The notes below the pieces were generated by a model. It saw nothing but the letters and a program-made list of their open reading frames with translations, was not told the DNA's origin and did no database searches. Both the position numbers and the translations under genes were made by a program. From Solitalea longa (GTDB lineage Bacteria > Bacteroidota > Bacteroidia > Sphingobacteriales > Sphingobacteriaceae), in the NCBI RefSeq assembly GCF_002920915.1, contig NZ_PQVF01000002.1, positions 248,375 to 312,374 on the forward strand: a stretch of DNA of 64,000 nt, in the 5' to 3' direction. Below, piece after piece: positions 42,073-51,778 of the stretch. Positions within the stretch are counted from its first letter, which is position 1. Each line of letters opens with the position of its first letter.

Positions 42073-44391
42073 TTAATCACTACTTGTAGTACCTTCTAAA
42101 ACTGAAATGGAGGTTTTTTGATCACCGATCTGAATCATAAATTCACCAGGTTCAGTTACACGTTTCAGATCATTATTGATGAATGATAGTCGTTCTCTGT
42201 CAATTTCAAACGAAACAGTTTTAGTTTCGCCTGGCTGAAGTGCCACTTTTTCAAATCCTCTTAAACGTTTTGCTTCAGGAGTAATTGAGGCCACTAAATC
42301 TTTAGCAAACAATAACACTGATTCTTTTCCGGCAACTTTGCCAGTATTGGTCACTTCAACAGAAACTGTAATTTTTCCGTTTTCGGCAATTTGGTTATTG
42401 CTAACTTTTAAGTTTGCATACTTAAATGTTGTATAGCTTAAACCATAACCAAACTCCCACTGAGGGTTGTATCCTGCCCACTCATCGAAAGGCAATGTTT
42501 CAGTGGTTTTATGGTAATAGTTGTGAAGGCTGTTTGAACTACGAGGATATGTATAAGGCAGTTTTCCGCTTGGATTAATTTTACCTGCCAACACATCGGC
42601 AATTACATTACCACCTTCGTTTCCTAACAAGAATGCATGAACCACAGCAGAGCTTAACGGTTCAATTTCTGCCAGTACACGCGGACGTCCTTCGGTTAAC
42701 ACAAATACAATTGGTTTTCCGGTAGCAGCAAGGGCTTTCGCCAATTCAATTTGTGATTTTGAAATATCAAGGTCACCAATATTACCAGGTGTCTCAGTAT
42801 AGCTATTTTCACCAATACATAATACAATCACATCAGCTTTTGCTGCTTTGGCAACAGCTTCGCTAATGCTTGTGGCATCAGTAAAGGATGCACCTTCGCT
42901 GTAATCAATATTGGCGGCACCGAAAGTTTTTTGAAGACCCTCGAAAATGTTATTCTTATCTGCTTCGGTAACATCGCTGTTTAAACCTTGCCAGTTACGA
43001 CTCCATCCTCCGTTTAAGGCACGCATTGATTTTGCAGCAGGACCAGTAACCAAAATCTTAGCAGTTGAAGCTAATGGAAGAATATTATTGTTGTTCTTTA
43101 ATAAAGCAACACATTCGGCAGCAACATCATAGTTAACTTTTGAATGATCCGCACTGTTAAACGCAAGGTAATCTTTAGCGTTTCCGGTTGGATTATTGAA
43201 TAAATCAACTTCAAATTTCACTCTTAATACACGTCTTACAGCATCGTCGATACGGCTCATTGGCACCTTACCTTCTTTAGCCAATTCAATTAATGCATCA
43301 CAAAAGGTATAATCGGTTGGCACCATGCTCATATCAATACCGGCATTAATGGCCATCATTACCGCCTCTTTATTGTCTTTCGCCACATGATGACGTTGGT
43401 ATAAATACTCAATATCCTGCCAATCGCTTACTGCAAAACCTTTGAAGTTAAGTTCGCCTTTTAAGATATCTGTTAATATATGTTTGTTGGCATGTACAGG
43501 TACACCGTTAATTTCACCGCTATTTACCATCACTGTTTTCGCGCCAGCCTTTACAGCTTCAGCAAACTGTGGTAAAAAATATTCACGTAATTCGCGTTCC
43601 GGAATCCATGCTGGTGTACGATCATGACCACTTAGCGGCATGCTGTAACCCATATAATGTTTTAAACAGGCAGCAACATGAAATTTATCTGTCACCAGGC
43701 TCTCTCCTTGAAAACCCTTTACCATAGCTTTACCCATTTCAGCTACCAGGTAAGGATCTTCACCAAAGGTTTCCCAAATACGTGGCCATACCTGATTGCG
43801 CCCTAAATCTAACACAGGACTGAAAGTCCATGGAGTAAACGAAGCTCTTGTTTCGTAAGCGGTTATCTCCGCAGCTTTCCTCACCATTTGCGGGTTAAAA
43901 GAGGCAGCCTGTGCAATTTGTTGAGGGAACAGCACCGAGTTGGCGGTATAGTTATTACCATGAATGGCATCGATACCATATAAAACCGGAATTTTATTAG
44001 GTGACTCAAGCGCCATTTTCTGTATGGTTTCAATAACGCCCTGCCAATTTGCAACCGTTTGTGCATCGCCACCAACATTAAGGATAGATCCTACTTTATG
44101 GGTGCGAATACATTCACTAAGTTTATCAAGATCAAGCTGATGAGGCTCTACCACTTTACCGCTTTCAGTTTTGAGCAAAATCTCGATACTAATTTGAGTC
44201 ATCTGCCCTACTTTATCTTCCAACGACATTTTAGCCAGCAACTCGTCAATCTTCTTCTCAATATCGGCAGAAGTTAAAGGAGTAGCAGCCGTTTGTGCAG
44301 GAGTGCCTTTTGTTTTTTTAGTTTGGGCATAAGCACCAGAGCAAACTGCAGCTGCTAACAGCAGCGTTAATGATACTTTATTAAATTTCAT
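42073..44391 (-). CDS. bglX: Periplasmic beta-glucosidase, GH3
   Basis: A 772-residue exported glycoside hydrolase, last gene of the SusCD operon. The signal peptide ends GAYAQ (about residue 23). The GH3 N-terminal barrel shows KVGQMTQI, YGIDAIHGNNY, CLKHYMGYSMPLSGHDRTPAWI, and FKGFAVSDWQDIEYL with the likely nucleophile Asp (about residue 323). The GH3 C-terminal domain and a fibronectin type III-like end (KVAGKESVLLFAKDLVASITPEAKRLRGFEKVALQPGETK) follow. Family members release glucose from beta-glucans or cello-oligosaccharides. With SusC/SusD this suggests a beta-glucan uptake locus; the linkage is inference. Confidence 0.94.
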   Translation of the reverse strand: MKFNKVSLTLLLAAAVCSGAYAQTKKTKGTPAQTAATPLTSADIEKKIDELLAKMSLEDKVGQMTQISIEILLKTESGKVVEPHQLDLDKLSECIRTHKVGSILNVGGDAQTVANWQGVIETIQKMALESPNKIPVLYGIDAIHGNNYTANSVLFPQQIAQAASFNPQMVRKAAEITAYETRASFTPWTFSPVLDLGRNQVWPRIWETFGEDPYLVAEMGKAMVKGFQGESLVTDKFHVAACLKHYMGYSMPLSGHDRTPAWIPERELREYFLPQFAEAVKAGAKTVMVNSGEINGVPVHANKHILTDILKGELNFKGFAVSDWQDIEYLYQRHHVAKDNKEAVMMAINAGIDMSMVPTDYTFCDALIELAKEGKVPMSRIDDAVRRVLRVKFEVDLFNNPTGNAKDYLAFNSADHSKVNYDVAAECVALLKNNNNILPLASTAKILVTGPAAKSMRALNGGWSRNWQGLNSDVTEADKNNIFEGLQKTFGAANIDYSEGASFTDATSISEAVAKAAKADVIVLCIGENSYTETPGNIGDLDISKSQIELAKALAATGKPIVFVLTEGRPRVLAEIEPLSSAVVHAFLLGNEGGNVIADVLAGKINPSGKLPYTYPRSSNSLHNYYHKTTETLPFDEWAGYNPQWEFGYGLSYTTFKYANLKVSNNQIAENGKITVSVEVTNTGKVAGKESVLLFAKDLVASITPEAKRLRGFEKVALQPGETKTVSFEIDRERLSFINNDLKRVTEPGEFMIQIGDQKTSISVLEGTTSSD

Positions 44392-44470: not shown

Positions 44471-45985
44471 TTAGTAGTTATTTTGAGTTAAACCACCAGT
44501 TCTTACATCAGTAATAGGAATTGGCAACACATTATGTTTACCATCAACGTAGCCATATGGAGCAAGCTCTGTTTTAGCCATTCCCCAACGAACAAGGTCA
44601 ATGTAACGGAAACCTTCAAAGGCTAACTCAACCTGACGCTCGTGAACGATAGCTAAGAACAATGCGTTTCCAGTTGGAGTGATCGATCCCAACTCTGAAC
44701 GATTTCTCACATCGTTCAAATATCCTTGAGCTTTACCCTCGTTACCAGCTCTGTAGTAAGCTTCAGCAGCCATTAACAATACATCAGCATAACGAATTAA
44801 ACGCCAATTGGTAGTATAGTTAAGTGGACTATCTCCACCAGGTCCTGTCGCTTTTTCGAAAGTACCATATTTACGCTGCCAATAACCTGTGTAATCCCAG
44901 GTAGCCTGATTTGTAAAGTCTCCTCCGGCTGCTTTCAATTCAGCAAGTGACATAACTGAATATTTTTTACGCTCATCACCAGCTTCGAAAGCATCATACA
45001 TTTTCTTGGTAGGTAAGTTAAAACCCCATCCATTATTTAATGAATCAGTAGGCGCTTTAACATATGAACCCTCTCTTGGACCCATTAACTGAACGTGAAT
45101 ATTACTTTCAGGCTGATTACCCCATGGGAAGTTACCCCAAGTGTATTTTTCAGCATTTGAAAATGAGGTCTCAAAGATAGACTCTTTACCAAACTCTCCA
45201 TATGTTGAGAAAGTAGCGCCAATTGATGATTCAAGACCGTATACTTTCGAAGTAATAACATTTTCAAACTGAGTTGCTGCTGCAGCCCATTTCTCTTGAT
45301 ATAACAATGCTTTACCTAACAACGCTTGAGCAGCACCTTTAGACACCCTATATCTTTCAGCAACAGCATATGCCGATTTTAAAGGAAGATCAGGAATAGC
45401 TTCTGTTAAATCTTTCTCAATTTGAGCATAAACCTCTGCTTTAGGAGCCCTTACCCCTTTCTTATAGTCTTCAGGTTTAACCTCGGTTAAAATCAATGGA
45501 ACATCACCCCAAAGCGATACTAAGTCTAAATAGTTATAGGCTCTTAATGCTTTTGCCTCAGCAACGATACGTTTACGTAAATCAGTCTCAGGTTTAACAT
45601 TATTGATAACAAGATTAGCTCTGTAAATAGTGAAATACATTGTTCTCCATGCAATTTCCATATTTCCATTAGTTGGATCGAGCTGAGCTAATTTATCCAA
45701 AGCCTGGTAGCCAGGTTGATCACCCGGGCCACTACCTCCTGCTGCGCTCTCATCTGAAGGCATTGTTTTTATCAACAAACGACTACCCCAAGCAGTAAAA
45801 TAGTCAGCGCTATTCATATCATATACCGCAGTAATAGCCAACTGGGCATCTGCATCGGTTTTATAGTACTCATCCACAGGTAGCTTTCCAGGAACATCTT
45901 GCTCCAGGAAACTTTTTCCACAACTACTGGCAACGGTTACCAGAGCAGTGCATAATAGTATATTCTTAACAATTGATAGTTTCAT
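44471..45985 (-). CDS. SusD/RagB-family glycan-binding lipoprotein
   Basis: A 504-residue outer-membrane lipoprotein that forms the lid of the SusC transporter. The lipobox is TVASSC with Cys at about residue 22. The TPR-like helical core and the RagB/SusD signature ends are visible: DADAQLAITAVYDMNS, RAYNYLDLVSLWGDVPLILTEV, NWRLIRYADVLLMAAEAYYRAGN, and VHERQVELAFEGFRYIDLVRWGMAK. It lies 60 bases after susC and 79 bases before the GH3 gene, all on the minus strand. Confidence 0.96.
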   Translation of the reverse strand: MKLSIVKNILLCTALVTVASSCGKSFLEQDVPGKLPVDEYYKTDADAQLAITAVYDMNSADYFTAWGSRLLIKTMPSDESAAGGSGPGDQPGYQALDKLAQLDPTNGNMEIAWRTMYFTIYRANLVINNVKPETDLRKRIVAEAKALRAYNYLDLVSLWGDVPLILTEVKPEDYKKGVRAPKAEVYAQIEKDLTEAIPDLPLKSAYAVAERYRVSKGAAQALLGKALLYQEKWAAAATQFENVITSKVYGLESSIGATFSTYGEFGKESIFETSFSNAEKYTWGNFPWGNQPESNIHVQLMGPREGSYVKAPTDSLNNGWGFNLPTKKMYDAFEAGDERKKYSVMSLAELKAAGGDFTNQATWDYTGYWQRKYGTFEKATGPGGDSPLNYTTNWRLIRYADVLLMAAEAYYRAGNEGKAQGYLNDVRNRSELGSITPTGNALFLAIVHERQVELAFEGFRYIDLVRWGMAKTELAPYGYVDGKHNVLPIPITDVRTGGLTQNNY

Positions 45986-46045: not shown

Positions 46046-49000
46046 TTAAAAGGTAACAGCAAGTCCACCTGTTATCATTCTAGGAGTAGGGTAAACACCT
46101 CTGTCAATACCCACACTGTTTGCTGCATTAGCATTTGAGCCACCTTCTGGATCAAAACCTTTATAATTTGTAAAGGTGAAGTAGTTATCCAGTGAACAGT
46201 AAAGACGTAAGCTCTTCACTTTAACAGTGTTCATCATTTTGCTTGGGAAAGTATAACCCAATTGTAACTGACGAATACGCATGAAATCACCTTTAAATAC
46301 CATTAAATCACTTTGATAAATGAAGTCATTATTAGTATTTGAAGCAAACCAAGTGTTTGTACTTCCATCACCGGTCCAACGATCTTTGAAGAAGAATTCA
46401 GGTTTATTAGCTGAAGGACGGTCAGTACGGTTAAAGCCCATCATTACGTCGTTACCACCTTGTCCCTGTAAGAAACATAAGAAATCAAATCCTTTGTAGC
46501 TCATGTTCAAGGTTAAACCGTAAGTAAAATCAGGATTTGGATCTCCAATCATTGTATGGTCACCTGAACTGATTTGAGTATCGCCATTTGAGTTAACAAT
46601 AATAGGATCGCCTGGTTTAGGAGCATAACCGGTTAATTTATTATCAGCTATGTACTTGTCGATTTGTGCTTGATTTTGGAAGATACCTGCAGTTTTATAT
46701 CCGTTAAAGTACCATAAAGGCTTGTTCAAAGAGAACATTGTTGCAGTATAACCAGTACCTATACCAGCACCGTTAATGGTGTTAAGGAAAGGATTCATGT
46801 AGGTAACTTTATTTTTCATCAAGCTTAAGTTACCACTAACAGAATACTTAAATGCTTTCGTTGTATTGCTTTTGTAAGTTAATCCAAACTCCCAACCATT
46901 ATTCTCAACGTCACCACCATTTACAACTGTAAGTACGTTACCAACATAATCAGGAACCACACCTGGAGTTAATAGATCTTTAGTTGTTTTTTTGTACCAA
47001 TCAACTTCTAAGAATATGCTATTATTTAAGAAACCGAACTCAGCACCAATATCTAACTGCTCACTGGTTTCCCATGTAAGTAGTGGGTTTGGAAGATTAC
47101 TTGGAGCAGCTCCAATTATGTTTGCTGGATTAGCAGGATCGGAGTTAGGAATTTGAATACCGGCAGTAGAAATACCTGCAGCCCAGGTACCAACACCTAT
47201 ATTTGCCAAACTACCATTTTGACCCCAGCTTGCACGAAGCTTGGTGTAATTCATCACTTTCGCTACACTTTCAGGGAAGAAATCTTCACTTGACATTACC
47301 CATCCGCCTGAAACTGCAGGGAAATAACCCCACTGATGACCAGGTGCTAATCTTGATGAACCGTCAGCTCTGATCGAACCGTTCAATAAATACTTGCCTT
47401 TATAATCATATCCAACACGTCCAAAATAAGACGCTAAAGTAGAAGTATTATATTGACCCGCTATTTTATCTTGTGTATCAGGTGAAAAATCAGGATAAGC
47501 ATATTTCTCACCTTGTCTGAAGAATTCGGCATAACTGCTCGCCATATTATTGAAATTCGCCTTGTAAGCCGACATACCAGCCATTGCAGTTAATGAATGA
47601 CTACCGAATGCTTTTTGGTAGGTAGCAAAGTTTTCCCATTGCCAATTAAACCAGTTGTTTTGGGTATCACCACCACTCAGGGTTGAGTTACGGTTAACAT
47701 CTGTGAAATAAAATAGAGGACTCCAGTTGTGAGTTTTAACAAATGCAGCATCAACACCAAAACGGGTGGTAAATTTCAATCCTTTAACAATATCAATATC
47801 TGCATAAACGTTACCTACAATTTTATTCTGAATTGTCGATGTTTCTGTAACATCAATCAATCCCAATGGGTTTCCATACTCCCCTTGTACAAATCTTGAC
47901 ATTCCGTAGTAGTTACCATTTTTATCCTTAACTAATGGAAGACCACTTGCAAGTGCAGTAGTAACGTGAGCAGGAAGTGTGCTACCTGAAGGATAAGTAA
48001 CAGGAGTAATTGGATCCAATGCTAAAGCACTTGATATAACCGAACGAAACTCACTGTTCTCAGCAAGACCGGTGGTTGCAAAGTTTGAATACGACAAACG
48101 CTCACCGATATTTAACCAGTCTTTTACTTTATTATCTGTATTTAAACGAACTGTGTAACGTTTAAAATCAGCTTTATCACCACCTGCAACCCCTTTTTGG
48201 TTGAAATAGCTAAGACCAACCAAATAGCTTGATTTTTCTGAGCCACCACTAAGGGTTAATGCATGACGTTGTTGAGGTGCATTTTGAAATAAGGCATCTT
48301 TCCAGTTGGTACCCTCGCCCGCAGCTTTAACTTCTGCGTCTGTAGGTAAATCACCGTAACCTGACTCTTTTAAGTATTGTGTATACTGTTGAGCATTCAT
48401 TAATGGCATGATGTTGCCAATAGATTGTTGACCGATTTGAAACGAGTAATCAATACTGCTGGTTTCTTTCTTTTTGCTACCCGATTTTGTAGTAATAAGA
48501 ACAACCCCGTTCGCACCTTCAGCACCGTAAATAGCAGCAGAAGCAGCGTCTTTCAATATTTCAGTTGACTCGATCTCTGATGGATCTAAATACTCGATAC
48601 CACCAGCTCTCATACCATCGATAATATACAATGGTTGAGAATTTTGGTTTGAACCAGCACCACGAATACGAATACTTACTGGAGAACCAGGAGAACCCGA
48701 CTGAGGTAACACGGTAACACCAGCGGTACGACCTTGTAAAGCCTGGTCGATACGGCTGATTGAAGTGGTTTTTAAATCTTCAGCTTTAACCTGAGAGATC
48801 GCGCCAGTTACTAACCCTTTTTTCTGGGTACCGTAACCTACAACAACCACTTCTTCTAAGGCTGCCACATCTTCCTGTAATTGAACAGAAATAGAAGTTT
48901 TACCCGCTACGGCTCTTTCAACAGGTTTGTACCCAATAAAATTAAATACGAGTGTTCCGTTACTAGGTACGGAAATTGAATAATTACCATCTACGTCTGT

Positions 49001-49159
49001 AGAGGTACCTTTACTGCTCCCTTTAATAGATACAGTAACGCCGGTTAAAGGAAGACTCTGTGCGTCTATTACTTTACCTTTAACGACTAATTCTTGGGCG
49101 AGGAGGTGTGTTGTACACAACATCAGCAACGCCAAAAAAACAAGTACATGTTTTCTCAT
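46046..49159 (-). CDS. SusC/RagA-family TonB-dependent outer-membrane transporter
   Basis: A 1037-residue transporter. The signal peptide ends LLAQ (about residue 21). A carboxypeptidase-regulatory-like domain follows (VVKGKVIDAQSLPLTGVTVSIKGSSKGTSTDVDGNYSISVP), then the TonB box ALEEVVVVGYGTQKK (about residues 101-115), the plug with SPVSIRIRGAGSNQNSQPLYIIDGM and ILKDAASAAIYGAEGANGVVLITTK, and the 22-strand barrel ending in an aromatic (GGLAVTF). No N-terminal STN secretin-like domain is present, so it is not expected to signal to a FecR/ECF sigma pair. Promoter at 49225-49254. Confidence 0.96.
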   Translation of the reverse strand: MRKHVLVFLALLMLCTTHLLAQELVVKGKVIDAQSLPLTGVTVSIKGSSKGTSTDVDGNYSISVPSNGTLVFNFIGYKPVERAVAGKTSISVQLQEDVAALEEVVVVGYGTQKKGLVTGAISQVKAEDLKTTSISRIDQALQGRTAGVTVLPQSGSPGSPVSIRIRGAGSNQNSQPLYIIDGMRAGGIEYLDPSEIESTEILKDAASAAIYGAEGANGVVLITTKSGSKKKETSSIDYSFQIGQQSIGNIMPLMNAQQYTQYLKESGYGDLPTDAEVKAAGEGTNWKDALFQNAPQQRHALTLSGGSEKSSYLVGLSYFNQKGVAGGDKADFKRYTVRLNTDNKVKDWLNIGERLSYSNFATTGLAENSEFRSVISSALALDPITPVTYPSGSTLPAHVTTALASGLPLVKDKNGNYYGMSRFVQGEYGNPLGLIDVTETSTIQNKIVGNVYADIDIVKGLKFTTRFGVDAAFVKTHNWSPLFYFTDVNRNSTLSGGDTQNNWFNWQWENFATYQKAFGSHSLTAMAGMSAYKANFNNMASSYAEFFRQGEKYAYPDFSPDTQDKIAGQYNTSTLASYFGRVGYDYKGKYLLNGSIRADGSSRLAPGHQWGYFPAVSGGWVMSSEDFFPESVAKVMNYTKLRASWGQNGSLANIGVGTWAAGISTAGIQIPNSDPANPANIIGAAPSNLPNPLLTWETSEQLDIGAEFGFLNNSIFLEVDWYKKTTKDLLTPGVVPDYVGNVLTVVNGGDVENNGWEFGLTYKSNTTKAFKYSVSGNLSLMKNKVTYMNPFLNTINGAGIGTGYTATMFSLNKPLWYFNGYKTAGIFQNQAQIDKYIADNKLTGYAPKPGDPIIVNSNGDTQISSGDHTMIGDPNPDFTYGLTLNMSYKGFDFLCFLQGQGGNDVMMGFNRTDRPSANKPEFFFKDRWTGDGSTNTWFASNTNNDFIYQSDLMVFKGDFMRIRQLQLGYTFPSKMMNTVKVKSLRLYCSLDNYFTFTNYKGFDPEGGSNANAANSVGIDRGVYPTPRMITGGLAVTF

Positions 49160-49224
49160 AATTGGTTGAATTTGTTATCGAACAATAAATTGGTTAATAA
49201 AAAATTAATTTAAATCGGTCGATT

Positions 49225-49254
49225 CAAATATATATCACCAAACAAGAAAAACAA
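49225..49254 (-). promoter_or_regulatory. Promoter of the susC-susD-GH3 operon
   Basis: Minus strand: TTG (49252-49254), exactly 19 bases, TATATTTG (49225-49232), a perfect TAnnTTTG match. The predicted leader to the susC ATG is about 60 bases. Confidence 0.75.
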
Positions 49255-49272
49255 TACAACTTATTAATTAAC

Positions 49273-49289
49273 AGTGTATTATATACACT
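49273..49289. promoter_or_regulatory. Inverted-repeat operator candidate upstream of susC
   Basis: Perfect 7-base arms AGTGTAT and ATACACT with 3 bases between. The centre (49281) lies about 27 bases upstream of the -33 element, close to -61 from the predicted start, a usual place for an activator. Confidence 0.5.
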
Positions 49290-49660
49290 ATGATACGCTT
49301 TGTTACCATGAGGTTTAAGACTGTTATGCATTGATTTTGTGGCTAAAAACAATAAAAAAAACATGTTTTTTTTTTTTCTGATACGCATTTCTACCATAAA
49401 ACATAAAACAGCAAATAACCTATAAATCAATAAGTTAAACTTGATAATATTTTTTAAGAACTAATAGAAAAAATAATCTTTGCTTGATAAAATGTCAATT
49501 TTCTTCTTACAATGCCAACGTTTGCATAAAACTATTAAAAAAGATCTTGGTATAATCAGCTTACAGCAGTACCGAAAAACGCGTTCAAGAGAATATTCAA
49601 TGGATCAAACAGGCTTTTAATTCATTGAGATGGAGAAGAGGCATCCAGTATTAGATAAAA

Positions 49661-49795: not shown

Positions 49796-51655
49796 CTATT
49801 CCACCTCTTCCAATAGCAAGTCACTCCAGCCATGGATTGCTCCATTTTTCTTTCCTTTTTTACTCTGAAGCGCTTTTTTAATTTTCGAGGAATAAGCCCA
49901 ACAAGTACTTTGGCGTATATCCAAAATCTCGGAAAGTTTATGAGATGAAATGCTTCCCTTTGAAGAGTACATAAGGAAGATCATATAAAAGGCTTTATTA
50001 ATTGGAATACGCGTGTTTTGCAGTATTGTGTTGGCGGTAACCGACTCTTCATAACCACATTTAGCGCATCGCTTATTGAGCAAGCCATGCCCATTATAAT
50101 ACCCACCGTGATTACATTTTAAGCAGGTATAGCCATTTTGCCATTTAAGGTCGGCAAGGAACTTTATGCAACTGTCATTATCAGGATACATCTTACTAAA
50201 CTCCTCAAAATCCACATCTTTTGACATGATTCTCGCCTGGGTAACTTTAGCAACATCCTCTTTAAGCTGCACATTATCTTTGGCCAACAAGTCGTTCATA
50301 TGCGCAATTTCATTGGCCTGATGTCGCAATAGCTCATTGGCGTTCAACAGTTCCTGGGTTTTAAGTTTTACCTGTGCCTCAAGTTCTTGATTAAGGGAAT
50401 CCTTCAGCTGGTGATTTAGCTTCAACTGCTTAATGGTTCGTTGTGTTGCGATTTCCTTTTGCTCTTTCAGTAATCTAACCTTATCTCCTATTGCTATTGA
50501 AAGGAACATCATTTCGGCTACAAAACAGAAACTTAAACTATAGTGGGTAATTGGCCCGTAAGGCAAAAAGTTGGGCCAAAAAGTTAATATACTTTTAACC
50601 ACAAGCCCAAAAAAGAGGAAAGAGTAGGCAATAACATAAAACCTGGCCGGTCTATATCCGGATATTCGAAGCCTGGCTCCTACATAAAAAGCGATACTCA
50701 GCGGAATCACCTCAATTCCCCTCATTTCAAAACCTGAATGAAAGTAAAAGAGGCAGTATAAGAAAAAGATGGAACGAAGTACCAAGGTCACCACGATAAG
50801 TTTATCGAGCCTAGGCGCTACCTTCTTTAAATTCAATAGCTTACGACCAAACAAGAGCGCAAAAAACGAAGCCGCAAATAAGGTATAGCCCGTTGTATGC
50901 TGATTCCAATAGGGGTAATTTGGCCATAGGTATTCGTAGGCAATCCCATCAGCACACATTTCATACATTGCGATCGACAATAAATAAGCTATATAGTACA
51001 GGTACTGCACTTCCTTAATGGCGAAATACATGATGAGGTTATAAAAGCAGAAAACTGCGATCATTCCGTAAAAAAAGCCAAAAAAGAAGTATTCATTTAA
51101 TGCATACTCTACAAACCAGTTAACGGAGCGTAGCACCAGAAGGGCATCCGCTTTTTGGTCGGACTTAATTTTGAAATAATACGTATGAACCTGATTGTCT
51201 CCATTATCAATATCCATTACGTAATTTTTATGGATATAATGGCGCTTTCGGAACTTAAACCGGTCTCCAAACTCAACTGCATGATAAGCACCGCTGGGCA
51301 ATGGCTTGTAAAACTGTATATAATCAATCGTTTGATCGAAAAATTCAAACACCCAACGTTTATTAGAATAAAGATCGTTTTTTAGGCGGATCCGGTACCA
51401 ATAGGTGGCATTACGTTTAAAATTATACGGAAAGAGAAACTTGCTGGATGTAAACTTATTCGAATATGCTACTGAAGATATGGTATTGATATCAAGTTTC
51501 CCACTTTCATCTTCAAGAAATTGTATATCGTTATACATGAAAATATGTTGATTAACACTATCGTTAATAGCAACAATATTTTGTGCCGAAACGCGGTTAC
51601 AACAAACTAATATGAACGCAATTACAATAAAAGAAGCACGTAAAACTTTAATCAT
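49796..51655 (-). CDS. 7TM-DISM membrane sensor fused to a transposase-like zinc ribbon and HTH
   Basis: A 619-residue protein of unusual make-up. The ATG at 51655 (signal peptide MIKVLRASFIVIAFILVCCNRVSAQ) is chosen over the in-frame TTG at 51691, because that TTG is inside the probable -7 box. Order: periplasmic 7TMR-DISMED2-like domain (about 30-165; NATYWYRIRLKND), seven membrane helices (about 186-392), coiled coil (393-480), zinc ribbon with C511-x2-C514 and C530-x2-C533, and a helix-turn-helix (about 555-600; SISSHKLSEILDIRQSTCWAYSSKIKKAL). The last two resemble the N-terminal part of IS1595/ISXO2-type transposases. No DDE catalytic domain, kinase or GGDEF domain follows. It lies upstream of the SusCD operon on the same strand, so regulation of that operon is inferred. 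Confidence 0.85.
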   Translation of the reverse strand: MIKVLRASFIVIAFILVCCNRVSAQNIVAINDSVNQHIFMYNDIQFLEDESGKLDINTISSVAYSNKFTSSKFLFPYNFKRNATYWYRIRLKNDLYSNKRWVFEFFDQTIDYIQFYKPLPSGAYHAVEFGDRFKFRKRHYIHKNYVMDIDNGDNQVHTYYFKIKSDQKADALLVLRSVNWFVEYALNEYFFFGFFYGMIAVFCFYNLIMYFAIKEVQYLYYIAYLLSIAMYEMCADGIAYEYLWPNYPYWNQHTTGYTLFAASFFALLFGRKLLNLKKVAPRLDKLIVVTLVLRSIFFLYCLFYFHSGFEMRGIEVIPLSIAFYVGARLRISGYRPARFYVIAYSFLFFGLVVKSILTFWPNFLPYGPITHYSLSFCFVAEMMFLSIAIGDKVRLLKEQKEIATQRTIKQLKLNHQLKDSLNQELEAQVKLKTQELLNANELLRHQANEIAHMNDLLAKDNVQLKEDVAKVTQARIMSKDVDFEEFSKMYPDNDSCIKFLADLKWQNGYTCLKCNHGGYYNGHGLLNKRCAKCGYEESVTANTILQNTRIPINKAFYMIFLMYSSKGSISSHKLSEILDIRQSTCWAYSSKIKKALQSKKGKKNGAIHGWSDLLLEEVE

Positions 51656-51747: not shown

Positions 51748-51778
51748 AAGCGAGTCTGATTATTAGTCAGACCCGCTT
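51748..51778 (-). terminator. Terminator of eno
   Basis: Arms AAGCG-x-GTCTGA and GTCAGAC-x-CGCTT with a 6-base loop. On the minus strand a T-run follows. It separates eno from the sensor gene's promoter. Confidence 0.85.

Follow-up and report, generated by a model that had tools for sequence, protein, structure and literature searches.

The protein encoded at 49796-51655 of the window (the whole stretch of 64,000 nucleotides of Solitalea longa DNA that was analysed) very probably regulates the transcription of a glycan locus as a membrane-bound one-component protein; the glycan is probably beta-1,3/1,6-glucan, and the protein would bind two boxes in front of its target gene and activate it. 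The architecture of the protein, the transposase ancestry of its output module, the loss of catalysis, the synteny of the locus and the conservation of the operator boxes were all established in the analysis.

Architecture and genomic setting

The reading frame runs from an ATG at 51655 to a stop at 49796, and in the window the regulator, susC, susD and a GH3 gene follow each other on one strand:

51748-51778, minus strand: terminator-like hairpin in the gap between enolase and regulator (weak; the scan found 1, with 1.8 expected by chance)
49796-51655, minus strand: regulator gene, a 619-residue 7TM-DISM receptor with an IS1595-type zinc ribbon-HTH end (open reading frame, Pfam, NCBIfam)
51581-51655, minus strand: probable N-terminal signal peptide, residues ~1-25 (read from the sequence as a hydrophobic stretch up to VSAQ)
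51131-51529, minus strand: periplasmic 7TMR-DISMED2 jelly-roll, residues 43-175 (Pfam, E 3.6e-26; Foldseek)
50480-51094, minus strand: 7TMR-DISM_7TM seven-helix membrane domain, residues 188-392 (Pfam, E 5.8e-42; AlphaFold helices)
50222-50473, minus strand: long helices, likely a coiled coil, residues ~395-478 (AlphaFold helices 368-438 and 444-478)
50051-50185, minus strand: IS1595-type zinc ribbon, residues 491-535, with C511/C514/C530/C533 (Pfam, alignment, AlphaFold)
49850-50017, minus strand: HTH region, residues 547-602 (start of the NCBIfam IS1595 transposase model, E 1.4e-07; AlphaFold helices)
46046-49159, minus strand: SusC-type TonB-dependent transporter, predicted target (Pfam)
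44471-45985, minus strand: SusD-type lipoprotein (Pfam)
42073-44391, minus strand: GH3 glycoside hydrolase (Pfam)

An earlier, sequence-only reading had proposed a membrane-bound one-component protein, i.e. a 7TM-DISM receptor with a DISMED2 domain and seven helices that carries its own predicted DNA-binding end, and this is borne out by the Pfam domains and the AlphaFold model. Both receptor domains score far above their Pfam cut-offs (DISMED2 92.2 bits against 22, 7TM 144.4 bits against 29) and the output module (491-602) follows the membrane domain. The Reg_prop/Y_Y_Y periplasmic propeller that marks hybrid two-component glycan regulators is not matched in the window protein by Pfam; its sensor is the DISMED2 domain, likely the ligand-binding part, for which the periplasmic domain of RetS is the top Foldseek match (probability 1.00, TMt 0.76). 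The full-length model places the jelly-roll, seven membrane helices, the long helices and then the module in that order, with low confidence around residues 440-480; as modelled, the long helices are likely a signalling coiled coil.

The C-terminal end requires a more careful reading of the scores. The ribbon profile Zn_ribbon_IS1595 (PF12760) gives 16.2 bits on the window protein, below its cut-off of 25.4, so that the profile match foreseen in the sequence-only reading stays under the curated threshold for this protein taken alone. Its ribbon nevertheless counts as of the IS1595 type, since 32 of the 33 homologous modules match PF12760 (best 5.8e-8) and a model of the module reaches intact transposases at up to E 1e-40. 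The NCBIfam IS1595 model likewise stays under its cut-off on residues 547-602 (31.6 bits against 75), because just the front 57 of its 215 positions are present. The two CxxC pairs lie exactly where they had been read; none of C511, C514, C530 and C533 varies among 30 full-length homologues and 33 C-terminal ones, and 31 positions of the module are invariant in the latter set. Structure prediction of this region (AlphaFold, with the 33 homologues) returned the anticipated ribbon and helical module with confidence (mean pLDDT 84; 90-97 over most of it). A search of solved structures by sequence found nothing, and Foldseek found no match to the C-terminal model under E 1, i.e. no solved relative of the module; VIA-align gave weak HTH-type matches (Z up to 4.3, including AsnC/Lrp-type regulators and the IstA transposase), which are suggestive only.

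More than 70 named genomes carry the fusion (74 loci, mainly in Mucilaginibacter, Chitinophaga, Pedobacter and Solitalea), with full-length relatives in the genus and family and an identical Pfam architecture in deeper relatives. Since the full architecture recurs across genera and in these deeper relatives, the fusion is an old one that has been retained. An assembly error or chance join, which the sequence-only reading had allowed for, is ruled out by the same conservation. In an order-wide sample 203 of 400 genomes match at E 1e-8 (a minority with transposases alone), and 137 of the first 300 match the regulator at E 1e-45; the wider class has it less often (10 of 395 genomes, same threshold of E 1e-45). 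The Solitalea longa genome has a single copy, as well as a DISM histidine kinase, 26% identical, without the module. One Chitinophaga-like regulator locus carries the label Beijerinckiaceae (an alphaproteobacterium; L087) and is probably a mislabelled bin.

SusCD or glycosidases of families GH30/16/5/3/97 lie within 8 kb in 70 of 74 regulator loci, against 2 of 20 loci of DISM-histidine kinase controls from related genomes, although the regulator loci share ancestry and the counts are therefore not independent. The expected link of homologues with SusCD loci was thus found, but the tie is to beta-glucan-type glycosidases (GH30/16/5/3) and not to SusCD alone. The loci of Chitinophaga, Pedobacter and others run regulator, SusC, SusD, GH30, and those of Mucilaginibacter mostly GH5, regulator, GH30, GH16 without SusCD; deep relatives also precede SusC or GH3. 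The substrate is probably beta-1,3/1,6-glucan, because GH30 together with GH3, or with GH16, fits the use of beta-1,6- and beta-1,3-glucan. Counting against this assignment, the window locus itself holds SusC, SusD and GH3 only. Beta-glucans are sugars of fungal walls and laminarin. Multihaem cytochrome-like proteins of ~410 residues recur beside the glycosidases in 11 loci (e.g. L068:3897-5150, L069 and L090:14845-16089).

Ancestry and exchange of the output module

On sequence comparison, the module goes back to the front portion of an IS1595 transposase and has lost the catalytic domain, as the sequence-only reading had supposed. When genomes with weaker matches were searched with a model of the module, whole IS1595 transposases (~300 residues) came up at E 1e-12 to 1e-40. 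The closest transposase here, L148 (302 residues), has both zinc ribbon and DDE domain above cut-off and, used as a query, is 46-47% identical to some regulators, which is better than to many transposases. In a tree, made by a quick method from a short alignment, the regulator modules form one group (SH-aLRT 92), which sits inside a group with one IS1595 transposase lineage (SH-aLRT 97).

The front part of the ancestral transposase presumably bound the element's ends. The transposase relatives are mobile elements, because ten aligned copies of a sister IS element in one genome (G337) have inverted ends TTGACCTAT and 8-bp duplications. IS1595 membership was judged by the PF12760 ribbon, the PF12762 DDE domain, several copies and terminal inverted repeats with an 8-bp target duplication. 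Pfam finds no PF12762 match in the window protein, the DDE domain is absent from the regulators, and the regulator ends shortly beyond the HTH, at the point where L148 runs on into VEVDE. The regulator is therefore not an IS1595 transposase, and its single copy in the genome and fixed place in the synteny both speak against mobility.

Other relatives of this module were seen along the way. A stand-alone zinc ribbon-HTH protein of 138 residues (L151:1447-1863, minus strand) is a long-branch sister to the regulator modules. Another genome (G733) has six diverged, single-copy, full-length IS1595-like proteins (L283, L289, L292, L293, L294 and L295) with altered catalytic motifs (VDE, TDKW), around which recognisable ends were not found; these are possibly a second, independent domestication. 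A search of viral contigs with L148 found nothing.

Sensor and output have, by sequence, been exchanged at least once each, which makes the module an exchangeable output. In one genome (G032) a 1078-residue Reg_prop/Y_Y_Y propeller sensor (L106:15109-18345, minus strand), a few genes from a DISM copy, ends in the same transposase-type module, which falls inside the regulator-module group in the tree. The opposite exchange is a single case: a DISM protein 41% identical to that of the window (L108, genome G004) has a LuxR-type HTH in place of the module (GerE match just under cut-off), nests within the regulator DISM clade (L108/L013), and precedes SusCD, with no boxes in between. That a known DNA-binding end can stand in for the module at the same position in the locus is the strongest indirect argument for its working as a DNA-binding output. 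Two Pedobacter loci (L100:5984-6949 and L101:7641-8465) hold forms of 274-321 residues without DISM, consisting of a short hydrophobic N-terminus, helices and the module; these genes are divergent from SusC and keep the AGCGTATTA box on the strand of that SusC.

Candidate operator, mechanism and alternatives

The interval between the regulator and its predicted target gene contains a conserved direct repeat, AAGCGTATCA followed after 76-94 bp by AAGCGTATYA. It is visible in an alignment of the regulator-susC gap of four related copies as one block, GCGTATCAGAAAAAAAAA, with a second GCGTATYA downstream, the promoter element TATATTTG also being conserved in these four copies. Its counterparts in the window are:

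49379-49386, minus strand: predicted operator box 1, GCGTATCA, then an A tract (conserved sequence)
49291-49298, minus strand: predicted operator box 2, GCGTATCA, 88 bp beyond box 1 from start to start (conserved sequence)
49225-49255, minus strand: predicted susC promoter, attg at 49252-49255, 19 bp, then TATATTTG at 49225-49232 (read from the sequence)

The sequence-only reading had proposed 49160-49300 for a DNA-binding test, an interval that contains the box at 49291-49298 and misses the one at 49379-49386. In Bacteroidetes the promoter consensus has elements at -33 and -7, the latter being TAnnTTTG, and we take attg-N19-TATATTTG to be such a promoter. The end of box 2 falls ~35 bp before the -33 element, with box 1 still farther upstream.

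Among 72 intergenic regions the exact GCGTATCA was found 61 times forward and never in reverse (0.6 expected), always on the same strand between regulator and neighbour gene, in several genera. In total 46 box pairs occur in 43 of 85 regulator loci, nearly all 76-94 bp apart, with 42 of the 46 directly before SusC or GH30 and none in 21 control loci. Two groups of spacings stand out, near 79 and 86-94, which differ by about one turn of the helix, and the wider consensus is tG......AAGCGTATCA for the first box, box 2 going on as AAaat...TatAAt. In a scan of 300 genomes the strict pair was present in 63 of 137 with the regulator versus 12 of 163 without it (odds ~10 times higher with the regulator; Fisher P 5e-15, ignoring kinship), and a reversed-pattern control in 2 genomes. 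A looser pattern occurs twice in the 4.5 Mb of Solitalea longa, once at the window locus. About half of the regulator loci are without the two-box pattern, having one box or none, and recognisable boxes were not found with the deepest relatives.

The conserved operator supports sequence-specific binding of the module to the boxes. In the proposed mechanism, the periplasmic DISMED2 domain would sense an oligosaccharide released by the locus, and the signal would be relayed by the seven membrane helices and then the coiled coil, by which the regulator may dimerise, to the zinc ribbon-HTH, whose cytoplasmic position is expected because seven helices come after a periplasmic domain. The zinc ribbon-HTH would bind the two AAGCGTATCA direct repeats upstream of the susC or GH30 promoter, and the bound regulator would most likely activate transcription.

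Activation is preferred mainly because of the box position, with box 2 some 35 bp before the -33 element and box 1 beyond, as is usual for activators. The sequence itself is compatible with either sign of control, and two boxes 76-94 bp apart could loop DNA, so the regulator might instead be mainly a repressor or membrane tether of the locus from which the ligand releases the DNA. This is unlikely given that position, and the comparable fungal 1,6-beta-glucan locus of Bacteroides, which has a SusR-type regulator, SusCD, GH30_3 and GH3, is substrate-induced (PMC5481569). It is less probable still, though with a slim chance, that the boxes serve a different regulator of glycan loci, unlinked to this one, and that the DISM protein acts by protein contacts or was merely co-transferred. 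The strict pairs in regulator-free genomes and the many regulator loci without one would fit this, but the boxes lie between regulator and neighbour, always on one strand, in several genera, and 52 of the 82 pairs found genome-wide are within 5 kb of a listed regulator; moreover, the LuxR-swapped copy is without boxes, while the sensorless Pedobacter copies keep theirs. That the C-terminal part is the non-functional remnant of a transposase fusion in decay, as homology to transposases alone might suggest, is scarcely credible and on sequence grounds already contradicted by conservation: the module is rich in invariant positions, the frame is open in nearly all listed genomes, the module has a single origin in the tree, sensors have been exchanged and the operator is conserved.

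Beyond the activator reading, it can be entertained tentatively, as possible rather than probable, that an IS1595 end-recognition module became a portable output on different membrane sensors and drives beta-glucan loci, its two-box operator deriving from, or resembling, transposon ends. The terminal repeats of sibling elements compared with the operator are TTGACCTATyC (G337), TAGAGGTC, TTGGGTTACCAA and TTTAGAATAAGGCGTTT (L148); clear identity of these to AAGCGTATCA was not found, the one shared feature being GCGT in L148. This GCGT, common to the closest element end AATAAGGCGTTT and the box AAGCGTAT, is a weak likeness and may be chance.

Comparison with known systems

If the activator reading is true, bacterial one-component signalling would gain a new DNA-binding output, one whose descent from a transposase can be located in a tree and whose sister transposases still have the look of mobile elements. 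Dozens of beta-glucan loci of soil Bacteroidota (Mucilaginibacter, Pedobacter, Chitinophaga and Solitalea) would then have a likely regulator, operator and substrate class, and the natural exchanges of sensor and output would be ready-made chimeras for the study of 7TM-DISM signalling. A search of the open-licence literature found no described regulator that combines 7TMR-DISM with a transposase-type output, or that is domesticated from IS1595.

By its presumed role the regulator is comparable to SusR and ChiS. SusR consists of a periplasmic sensor, a membrane part and an HTH. The window regulator adjoins SusCD and glycosidase genes as SusR-type regulators do, but differs in having a 7TM-DISM sensor and an IS1595 zinc ribbon-HTH output. 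BT3309 of the 1,6-beta-glucan locus, likewise beside SusCD, GH30 and GH3 and predicted to control them directly, is merely termed SusR-type (PMC5481569). With the 7TMR-DISM receptors (RetS, histidine kinase and GGDEF types) the regulator shares DISMED2 and 7TM, including the RetS-like periplasmic fold, whereas it has no kinase, cyclase or receiver and ends in a transposase-derived DNA-binding module. Its zinc ribbon and HTH follow the order and spacing of those in IS1595/ISXO2 transposases (L148 being closest), yet the DDE domain is missing and the gene, present once, is joined to a receptor. ChiS of Vibrio cholerae is likewise a sensor with its own C-terminal DNA-binding domain that regulates glycan use, but it has a kinase and a receiver, and its HTH variant is unrelated (PMC8092284). 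The ChiS-type DNA-binding domain has also been described on 7TMR-DISM (PMC8092284). The sequence-only reading was not aware of a described system of this kind. DISM receptors with a DNA-binding end do have ChiS-type and LuxR-type precedents, so that what is new here, within a kind already known, is the transposase origin of the output.
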